From: Bacteroidales bacterium
GTDB lineage: Bacteria; Bacteroidota; Bacteroidia; Bacteroidales; UBA932
Assembly: GCA_017415715.1 (NCBI GenBank)
Contig: JAFQFD010000008.1
Location: 1-60,207, forward strand
Direction: 5' to 3'
Length of the DNA stretch: 60,207 bases
A model generated the notes under the pieces. The model saw only the letters and a program-made list of their open reading frames with translations, was not told the DNA's origin and did no database searches. The position numbers and the translations under genes were made by a program. Below, in pieces: positions 41,317 through 43,313 of the stretch (its first letter is position 1; every line of letters begins with the position of its first letter).

Positions 41317-42018
41317 ATGATCAAAGATATCATAAATAAGTTACATTCAGAACTGCCAGCAACTGTGAAGTTGGTGGCAGTTTCTAAATTTCACCCTTTT
41401 GAAGCAATTGAAGAGGCCTATGCTGCCGGTCAGCGTTGCTTTGCAGAGAGCCGTCCGCAGGAGCTGGCCGCAAAGGTAAAGCGGCTGGAAGAGATACGCC
41501 TGGAGAGGGGAGAGCCGGACTATATGTCCGATATCGAATGGCATTTCATCGGCCATCTCCAGACCAACAAGCTAAAGATGGTTCTGCCTCATGTGGCACT
41601 CGTCCAGTCGGTCGATTCTGTCAGGCTTCTTGATGCAATAAACGCCTGGGGAAAGGCTAACAATAAAGTTATAAACGTTCTGTTAGAATGCTTTATATCA
41701 GGCGAGGAGACTAAGCAGGGGCTTTCCGAAGAAGAGCTCATTCAGATAGTTTCCGGTGTCGTTCGTTATGATTTCATTCATATAGACGGCCTGATGGGAA
41801 TGGCTTCCTTTACAGATGATGAGGCAGAAATTCGCGAAGATTTCCAGAGGCTGCTTGACATGCAGCAGATCCTTCACGACTGGATCGGTGAAAGCGGAAA
41901 TGTCGATGCTGATTGCAGCGAGCTTTCCATGGGCATGTCGGGAGATTATCCTATAGCGATAGAAATGGGCTCTACAATGGTCCGTATCGGTTCTATGATT
42001 TTTGGGGAAAGGAATTGA
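41317..42018 (+). CDS. YggS family pyridoxal phosphate homeostasis protein
   Basis: 233 residues. PLP-lysine motif LVAVSKFHPFEAIEEAYAAG (Lys about 26), EWHFIGHLQTNK, and C-terminal LSMGMSGDYPIAIEMGSTMVRIGS split as LSMGMSGDYPIAIEMGS. PLPBP proteins bind PLP without catalysis and balance vitamin B6 and amino-acid pools. It starts 2 bp after yidC, and its 3' end overlaps the convergent lpxB by 26 bp. Confidence 0.95.
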   Translation: MIKDIINKLHSELPATVKLVAVSKFHPFEAIEEAYAAGQRCFAESRPQELAAKVKRLEEIRLERGEPDYMSDIEWHFIGHLQTNKLKMVLPHVALVQSVDSVRLLDAINAWGKANNKVINVLLECFISGEETKQGLSEEELIQIVSGVVRYDFIHIDGLMGMASFTDDEAEIREDFQRLLDMQQILHDWIGESGNVDADCSELSMGMSGDYPIAIEMGSTMVRIGSMIFGERN

Positions 42019-43276
42019 GTTCCTGCAGCATGGCCTTGGCTACTGCTGCGGATGCTCCTGTGCCACCGAGGGCGTTGCGAATGTCTGCATAATCGTTCAG
42101 CATTCTTTCGCGACGCTCTTTGTTTTCTATAAGATCTCTGATTTCAGCCACGAGTGCGTCAGGGTTGCAGTCATCCTGGATGAACTCCTTGAAAGCCAGT
42201 CTGTCGATAATCAGGTTTCCGAGGCTTATGTATTTGATCTTGACTATTTTGCGTGCTATGCGATAGGTGAGTGGATTGGTTATGTATCCGACCACCTGTG
42301 GAGTTCCGAATAGTGCGGTTTCAAGTGATGCCGTACCGGAATTTATGACTCCGGCTTCAGCATGACGGATGATTGACTGTGTCTCTCCGAAGAGGATCTT
42401 GACATACAGTCTGTTCTCGTCTGTCAGCCATGGTTCGTAATCCTTCATGCTTCGTGCAGGCGCACCTGCTATAAGGAACTGATAATCCTGATATTGCGGC
42501 AGAGCGTGCATCTTGGCGGCAAACTCTGTCAGAACCGGCATCATTGTGCTGATCTCAGCTTTCCTTGATCCCGCCAGCATTGCTATGACGGGCTTTGCCT
42601 CAAGCCCTGCTCTTTGGAGGAATTCTTCGCGTGTCTCCTTCATCGCCTGGGAACCGTCTACCGCGTCGACCAATGGATTGCCTTTATATATGTATTCAAC
42701 GCCTTTGGCGTCGAAATATGGCTTTTCAAACGGGAATACGATGAAAAGCTTGTCTAAGTATGCCTTAAGCTTCTTTATGCGTCCTTCGCGTGATGCCCAG
42801 ACTTTCGGGGCGATGTAGTAGAATACCTTGAAACCGGCTTTGTGGGCGAATTCTGCGATCCTGAAGTTAAATCCCGGGTAGTCGATGAGGATAACTACGT
42901 CAGGGTTCCATTGCTGGATGTCTTCCTTGCAGAATGCGACGTTCTTCATCAGTCTTCCGGCCTTTGCCAGCACCTCCACAAAACCCATGACAGCTCCATC
43001 CTTATAATGACGTACCAATCCTGATTGACAGGTGGCGGCATGGGTATCCAAAACAACCCCTTTCGTGCCTTCGGCGCTTCTTCCCCCTGCGGCCAGGGGG
43101 GTAGCACGGTTTTGGATACCCATGCCGTCACCATGAAAATGATTCCAGACTTCAAGCATCAGATCCCCGCCCCAGAAGCGGATGTCCGCCTGAGGGTCCT
43201 CGGCATATATGCCCTTCATCAAGTTTGAACCATGAAGGTCGCCTGAGGCTTCTCCAGCAATAATATAGTATTTCAT
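41993..43276 (-). CDS. lpxB: Lipid-A-disaccharide synthase with in-frame palindromic insertion
   Basis: 427 residues; relatives are about 380. MKYYIIAGEASGDLHGSNLM at the start, VILIDYPGFNFRIAEFAHKA, MLAGSRKAEI, and the family end are all normal. LpxB joins UDP-2,3-diacyl-GlcN with lipid X to form the lipid A disaccharide at the inner membrane. Oddity: after FWGGDLMLEV, where relatives continue directly to the VRHYKDxAxMGFVEVL motif, about 40 extra residues are present. Residues 49-82 are encoded exactly by a 102-bp palindromic element, 34 codons long. The frame is kept, so the gene is probably functional with a surface loop. Confidence 0.92.
   Translation of the reverse strand: MKYYIIAGEASGDLHGSNLMKGIYAEDPQADIRFWGGDLMLEVWNHFHGDGMGIQNRATPLAAGGRSAEGTKGVVLDTHAATCQSGLVRHYKDGAVMGFVEVLAKAGRLMKNVAFCKEDIQQWNPDVVILIDYPGFNFRIAEFAHKAGFKVFYYIAPKVWASREGRIKKLKAYLDKLFIVFPFEKPYFDAKGVEYIYKGNPLVDAVDGSQAMKETREEFLQRAGLEAKPVIAMLAGSRKAEISTMMPVLTEFAAKMHALPQYQDYQFLIAGAPARSMKDYEPWLTDENRLYVKILFGETQSIIRHAEAGVINSGTASLETALFGTPQVVGYITNPLTYRIARKIVKIKYISLGNLIIDRLAFKEFIQDDCNPDALVAEIRDLIENKERRERMLNDYADIRNALGGTGASAAVAKAMLQELNSFPQKS
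43031..43132. repeat. 102-bp palindromic element inserted in lpxB
   Basis: Terminal inverted repeats of 24 bp (43031-43054 and 43109-43132) with one mismatch; CGTGC/GCACG (43064-43068, 43104-43108) and a CCCCCTG/CAGGGGG hairpin with a CGGC loop (43083-43100) lie inside. Its length is divisible by three, and it is open in the lpxB frame. It carries no gene of its own, like a non-autonomous palindromic mobile unit. Confidence 0.85.
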
Positions 43277-43288
43277 TGTATCATCAGT

Positions 43289-43313
43289 TTTCTCGACTTC
43301 ACTCGAAATGACA
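43289..43313. repeat. Short repeat TGTCATTTCGAGTGAAGTCG between surE and lpxB
   Basis: Minus strand reads TGTCATTTCGAGTGAAGTCG then AGAAA, a form of the GTCATTTCGAG dispersed repeat seen in many Bacteroidota. It fills most of the 41-bp gap between surE and lpxB. Confidence 0.6.

Follow-up and report, generated by a model that had tools for sequence, protein, structure and literature searches.

The 60,207-nucleotide stretch of Bacteroidales DNA analysed here, which we call the window, carries lpxB on the minus strand at 41993-43276. The 427-aa product is recognized as lipid-A-disaccharide synthase by NCBIfam model TIGR00215 (227.7 bits; cut-off 190.25) and by its PDB relatives 5w8s/5w8n (E 3e-37). 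Within the gene lies a 102-bp palindromic element (43031-43132, minus strand) that corresponds exactly to codons 49-82, and the reading frame crosses it without a stop. An inverted-repeat search delimits two 24-nt arms, the gene-upstream arm GGTGACGGCATGGGTATCCAAAAC (43109-43132) and the gene-downstream arm GTTTTGGATACCCATGCCGCCACC (43031-43054); they pair at 23/24 positions (96% complementary). The 54-nt spacer between them (43055-43108), which reads CGTGCTACC ... GGGGTT in gene orientation, is the part repeated across the family described below, hereafter the core. Core hairpin 1, CCCCCTG-loop-CAGGGGG, occupies 43083-43100, where the core search pattern matches at 43083-43107. Core hairpin 2, GCGCC-GAA-GGCAC, at 43065-43077, was read from the sequence and is helix 3 of the covariation alignment; its stem and loop vary among copies. 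The insert strand has a folding energy of -61.4 kcal/mol (z -7.2), a stability equalled by 0 of 200 shuffles.

The insert lengthens the loop between the GGD and HYKEG motifs of LpxB from 51 nt in the relative G063 to 171 nt in the window, a gain of 40 residues. A second genome, G090, whose LpxB is 93% identical to that of the window, has the same insert with identical arms; the insert is therefore not a one-off assembly error. In other relatives the same loop is diverse in length and sequence, and is thus a naturally variable part of LpxB. In an AlphaFold2 model built from 44 sequences (mean pLDDT 83), residues 50-83 fall below pLDDT 50 and lie between helix 38-48 and strand 87-90, so that the insert is modelled as a low-confidence loop without predicted structure. 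A preliminary description of this DNA had proposed a 102-bp palindrome in frame in lpxB, near-perfect 24-bp terminal inverted repeats, about 40 additional residues, and toleration of the insert as a loop. All of these hold, and alignment with relatives shows that the extra residues are not common to all close LpxB homologues. Just upstream of lpxB, at 43289-43310 (minus strand), the window also contains CATTTCGAGTGAAGTCGAGAAA, which appears in 0 of 100 shuffles. The hutI loop of G259 (L205) is filled with units that resemble it (TGTCATTTCGAGCGA...).

A conserved core in many genes

A search of the window's own genome returned more copies in hutI, aroE, tilS, and aroK, and one between genes on contig C30. 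The hutI copy alone can be aligned over arm positions (85% over query 12-111); for the others, the match is limited to the core. The core is kept while the arms differ among copies, yet within each copy the arms mirror each other. The repeated unit of the family is thus a core of about 55 nt, joined to arms that are locus-specific. In this respect the preliminary description has to be revised: it proposed searching genomes with the terminal arm, a search that would find almost nothing, since arms vary between loci. It had raised the possibility that no related genome carries the arm again; further copies of the core are present.

With up to 2 mismatches allowed, the core pattern occurs at 109 places in 37 of 400 same-genus genomes, 1-7 per genome; the reversed pattern, used as a control in the same 400 genomes, occurs at none. 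The exact pattern gave 91 stretches among 84,980 species and 0 matches in viral contigs. Among the matches listed (80 of 91), all are titled as Bacteroidales MAGs, and where these titles name a host it is always a ruminant. We extracted 104 distinct copies, counting identical copies once and leaving out G270:C21 and L054, the latter cut by a contig end. Because the search pattern allowed little departure from the core, copies with conserved cores are over-represented; the C30 copy of the window's genome (L004), which has a one-base gap in its core, is missed by a substitution-only pattern. Identical match coordinates in two pairs of genomes (G026:C37 and G366:C6; G021:C13 and G266:C92) suggest that the same contig was binned into two MAGs.

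The 104 copies fall at 12 recurrent and 10 single sites. Eight genes hold 80 of them: hutI (16), lpxB (14), truB (11), an M20 peptidase gene (11), aroE (10), miaA (9), aroK (6), and tilS (3). NCBIfam names lpxB, hutI, truB, miaA, and tilS above cut-off; aroE and aroK are best matches below cut-off, and the M20 protein is assigned at family level only. Another 14 copies lie at four other recurrent sites, where the longest open frame is short or bears no relation to a recognized gene. In the eight genes the element is open and in frame in 79 of 80 copies, the exception (L043) being cut by a contig end. The preliminary expectation of protein-inserting palindromes in Bacteroidales comparable to those of Rickettsia is borne out by these many in-frame copies.

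Among the 79 in-frame copies, the core runs with the gene in 40 and against it in 39. The one DNA sequence encodes at least four peptides (RATPLAAGG, VLPPWPQGEG, GPSPCGQGGSTV, and PPAARGVARF), so it is the nucleotide and not the protein sequence that is conserved; the in-frame state combined with differing peptides indicates that selection keeps the frame rather than a peptide. Insertions are survivable because several frames of the core, in either orientation, lack stops. The TilS of the window's genome (L005) also contains the repeat-like peptides HCEERSDVAI and VIPDLIGDP, which resemble translated interspersed repeats. The truB loops of G026 and G090 (L030/L093) and the hutI loops of G000, the window's own genome, and G026 (L002/L015) match fully or almost fully (97% for hutI), in genomes that elsewhere, at lpxB, are about 80% alike; recent exchange or mis-binning is the likely cause.

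Might a Y1 (RAYT) tyrosine transposase move these copies as REP-like or MITE-like elements? The family shares with such elements the character of short, palindromic, non-coding repeats, and Y1_Tnp is found in 37/37 core-bearing genomes, against 20/37 hand-picked non-bearing genomes (Fisher p 1e-6, relatedness ignored), an association that may reflect clade membership. REP hairpins carry a GTAG or GTGG tetranucleotide at their foot; here GTAG follows hairpin 1 in the reverse reading, on the opposite side from the usual REP layout. Unlike REP or MITE elements, the copies are few, mostly intragenic, and without shared terminal repeats: outer arm identity between loci is 0.35, with only an inner consensus of about 12 nt. 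Cores of family A (the family described so far) and of families B and C (below) are found in 0 of 40 Y1 neighbourhoods of about 1.2 kb on each side, fewer at contig ends (L435-L474). REPs usually exceed 100 copies per genome, according to PMC2817692, in contrast to 1-7 for this core at up to 2 mismatches. We regard this origin as doubtful, although a Y1 transposase might yet provide the mobilization in the explanation preferred below.

Arm complementarity and covariation

In the 93 of 104 copies with an arm score of at least 12 (the 11 scoring lower were excluded), the Watson-Crick fraction over the first 20 arm positions is 0.94; reassigning right arms to other copies lowers it to 0.42, and to at most 0.46 in 500 such reassignments. 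The inner 12 nt or so show a weak consensus, GGnTTTSAAAAC, and outer arm identity within the same locus is 0.46. Alignment A1 comprises the 68 of 104 copies with an arm score of at least 16, a short core, and an arm directly adjoining it; its arm helix is 98.8% paired, a percentage pushed up by this selection, and 17 of 18 arm pairs vary at both partners. Covariation scores 0.650 in this alignment, as opposed to 0.162 for shuffled and 0.104-0.116 for slid alignments.

The same pattern appears in likely orthologs. The 29 such pairs overlap in membership and so are not independent; of their 116 left-arm differences, 90 have a counterpart in the right arm that preserves pairing in both copies. 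At aroK (L006/L033) one arm change is matched; at hutI (L070/L109) five of five are matched while the core is inverted. At the M20 gene (L063/L069) and at site T5 (L048/L084), 0 of 2 changes are matched in each.

Strong covariation, and a core conserved as nucleotides whatever the frame, would also be expected of a functional RNA: an mRNA hairpin selected for stability, processing, or regulation, with arms held together by compensatory mutation. Such selection would predict a preference for wobble pairs among the mismatches. In the transcribed orientation, however, the 1797 arm cells comprise 1723 Watson-Crick pairs, 35 A-C, 21 G-U, and 18 others; there is no G-U excess among these mismatches, which favours DNA copying over RNA selection. 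Moreover, the core is about equally frequent in both orientations relative to transcription, the element is absent from sister species at each site, and Rfam yields only sub-threshold matches and no family. A selected RNA is therefore an improbable explanation.

Core orientation, decay, and probable turnover

Both core orientations occur at hutI, lpxB, truB, aroE, and the M20 gene, and flipped cores with similar arms are seen at hutI (L070/L109), aroE (L039/L110), and the M20 gene (L045/L088). These pairs would suit an intragenic switch, with a site-specific recombinase inverting the arm-flanked core and so varying the protein within a population; DNA inversions are known from gut Bacteroidales (PMC10939037). 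Against a switch, the arms of different loci have no site in common beyond the inner consensus, orientation is uniform in miaA (9/9 F), aroK (6/6 R), and tilS (3/3 R), and the hosts are housekeeping enzyme genes; we consider it unlikely. Orientation agrees in 9 of 10 pairs with at least 85% flank identity, and otherwise bears no clear relation to relatedness. Excision of the insert from mRNA, or its bypass by the ribosome as in the hairpin-like inserts of Magnusiomyces mitochondria (cited in PMC6649704), would leave a protein without the insert; neither would require the open frame kept in 79/80 copies, and we give this idea very little credence.

Copies decay, and their cores change. Decayed or deleted copies occur in aroE (G090, G080), lpxB (G160, G193, G362), and hutI (G312); in truB of G032, both arms are present and the core is absent. 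At the M20 site, G153 and G259 have arms in common around a long and a short core, respectively. Core length is about 50-60 nt, or 90-99 nt in the long form. Similarity over the variable part of the core is 0.676 at the same locus, 0.674 in the same genome, and 0.661 for unrelated copies, so that cores hardly cluster by locus or by genome, with no signal of concerted core evolution within a genome (p 0.28). By contrast, the core type, defined by two bases (C..G or T..A), goes with the locus. The C/G type is found in lpxB (14/14), the M20 gene (11/11), miaA (9/9), hutI (14/16), truB (10/11), aroE (9/10), and tilS (3/3), and the T/A type in aroK (6/6) and in 13 of 14 copies at the four other recurrent sites. 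The core type argues for some persistence at a site. We read the combined pattern as probable long residence with turnover of the core interior, a reading in which core type and core similarity are not fully reconciled.

Filled and empty sites

Four comparisons of filled and empty alleles indicate where the arms come from: one arm in each belongs to the interrupted gene, and what has been added is the core plus an inverted copy of that arm. These comparisons are unrooted, and are compatible both with insertion and with precise loss in the "empty" relative. At miaA, the empty allele of the window's genome (G000) reads GACGGTGTTCAGGCGGGTGCT, and the filled allele of G366 reads GACGGCGTTCAGGCGGGG-TCGGAAAG-core-CTTTCCGA-CCCCGCCTGAACACCG, followed by 7 nt and then GGAGCT; the mirror arm retains a T of G000 that the native arm has lost. 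At hutI, the empty allele of G063 is GCCCTCGGCTGGAGCGGT|GCAGAATAT, and G261 has the G063 stretch, inner stem, core, inner stem, and inverted copy, and then GTAGAGTAT, with no loss and no filler. In a second hutI comparison (G160 filled, G032 empty), the mirror arm again retains bases of the empty relative that are gone from the native arm. Likewise, one arm is native in aroE of G259 (L100), compared with the empty site of G153.

A fifth case, lpxB of G400 compared with G211, is weaker. Filler amounts to 7 nt in miaA G366 and lpxB G400, and to about 30 nt in hutI G160. By eye, there is no direct repeat at the target in hutI G261/G063, miaA, or aroE, whereas hutI G160 shows a short one. Which side of the core the native arm occupies is not constant. 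W-L codons that are present in empty relatives of aroE also lie within the arms of L017, L039, and L110.

For lpxB, inspection by eye shows that the arms of copies with core R (G026, G415, G281, G147) reach conserved V-W/Y codons on the left, and those of copies with core F (G421, G400, G323) reach conserved S-G-L/M codons on the right; the gene must therefore have received at least two insertions. For the window copy itself, comparison with empty relatives gives values of 0.75 and 0.62, with shuffles reaching 0.81, and neither arm stands out. An automated comparison of 45 filled copies, most of which have no close empty relative in these hypervariable loops, found only hutI L196 and miaA L279 clearly beating shuffles with a native left arm; where the match is to L204, L270, or L281, the partner is a remnant rather than a true empty site. 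A different insert occupies the same LpxB loop in G127 (L134), flanked by a direct repeat of about 30 nt, CCCCGTCCTTATAGTGGCGGACTTGTCTGC, which also mirrors the conserved HYKDG codons.

Proposed mechanism

We consider it likely that the family is a mobile palindrome comparable in effect to Rickettsia palindromic elements (RPEs), with arms copied from the target and kept matching, and a core inverted, by template switching. The element consists of a conserved multi-hairpin core flanked by a pair of arms, each the inverted copy of the other. Insertion would bring in the core and a short inner stem; at that moment, as the four filled/empty comparisons suggest, 15-25 nt of adjacent target would be copied in inverted form onto the far side of the core, leaving one arm as the gene's own sequence and the other as its mirror copy. 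Later template switching during replication would keep the changing arms complementary, in line with the observed covariation, and would sometimes turn the core round, which would give the two orientations seen. Survivors would be the copies that keep the frame and add a tolerated loop; the insert, open and in frame, is presumably translated. This explanation does not require a benefit to the host.

Template switching is reported to have such effects: it is said to create and maintain stems (PMC8794818) and, at inverted repeats in yeast coding genes, both to homogenize arms and to invert the spacer (PMC8604942). The likeness lies in a single mechanism producing both outcomes within coding sequence; the difference is that the inverted spacers reported in yeast amount to 2-5 substitutions, whereas the Bacteroidales spacer is a mobile core of 50-100 nt.

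Three other schemes were set aside. A transposon with shared terminal repeats does not fit arms that differ between loci. One ancient insertion per gene followed by vertical descent is insufficient, given the insertions needed in lpxB. The idea, suggested by lpxB, that the native arm always has the same polarity with respect to the core is contradicted by aroE, miaA, and hutI. Reverse transcriptases show no association with the core (13/37 core-bearing genomes, 11/37 others).

Comparison with known systems

The best-known palindromic elements lying in frame in conserved genes are those of Rickettsia and related bacteria. The Bacteroidales family resembles them in being a small palindrome, in frame and tolerated in conserved genes, and truB is a host in both; its arms, by contrast, vary with the locus and, where this can be tested, derive from the target. 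The RPE side of this comparison is drawn from described features. RPEs are about 150 bp long, with 44 counted in R. conorii genes (PMC10969869), and R. conorii truB carries an RPE-1 (PMC3733652). The CGTC end tag reported for RPE-4 and RPE-6 is missing from the locus-specific Bacteroidales termini. In addition, RPE arms are said in PMC6649704 to lose identity over time, in contrast to the covarying Bacteroidales arms. The preliminary comparison with RPEs thus stands for the effect on the host protein, and does not extend to membership, as judged by the end tag. The family is widespread in one genus and unusual; it works like an RPE, and the target-derived arms set it apart.

Nematomorpha mitochondria offer another parallel. 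As set out in PMC6649704, near-perfect inverted repeats lie in their protein genes, and the arms seem to stay identical through conversion or template switching; these coding palindromes lack a mobile core of the conserved kind and carry conserved protein sequence in both arms. In the Bacteroidales element, by contrast, the same core recurs in different genes, and one of the two arms is a by-product. A search of one open-access library found no paper on an element of this kind in Bacteroidales.

Further core families

Two more core families are present, and the first of them, family C, has the same architecture. The family C core, starting GTGCCACCCGCGGCACGGAAGC, is present in 55 of 400 genomes, and 21 of its 33 distinct copies have mirror arms with a score of at least 12 (swapped control, 0.6%). 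Several of these copies sit in miaA or truB loops of genomes without family A there, and one (L291) holds an extra hairpin module known from the long form of family A; the cores look modular. A family B core is found in truB of the window's genome (L229). The architecture is therefore not confined to a single sequence.

More tentatively, and with somewhat less than even confidence, we propose a class of Bacteroidales mobile elements that copies 15-25 bp of target in inverted form at each insertion, an inverted target duplication presumably arising by fold-back priming or template switching. The hairpin of each copy would then be host-made, and core families A, B, and C, with exchangeable modules, would have colonized the same enzyme loops repeatedly. 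If the arms are target-copied, the outcome of insertion is unlike the usual direct target duplication, and the origin and matching of inverted repeats in genes become testable. The gut Bacteroidales family, with its roughly one hundred copies, its empty sites at orthologous positions, and its several core families, is a comparative system in which one can ask how non-coding sequence enters and persists in essential proteins. By adding loops of differing sequence at one site, the element is a source of protein novelty.

The family B core (GAAGAC...CACCCCCTAGCCGGGGGTGGCAYGTCTTC), with short mirror arms, lies in the truB loops L229, L224, and L226, and elsewhere in the window's genome at L009 and L010. 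Family C has many exchangeable hairpin modules. In its copies L399-L428 and L408, the loop of the first hairpin, ACCCGC, is complementary to GCGGGG or GCGGGT just downstream, a possible pseudoknot.
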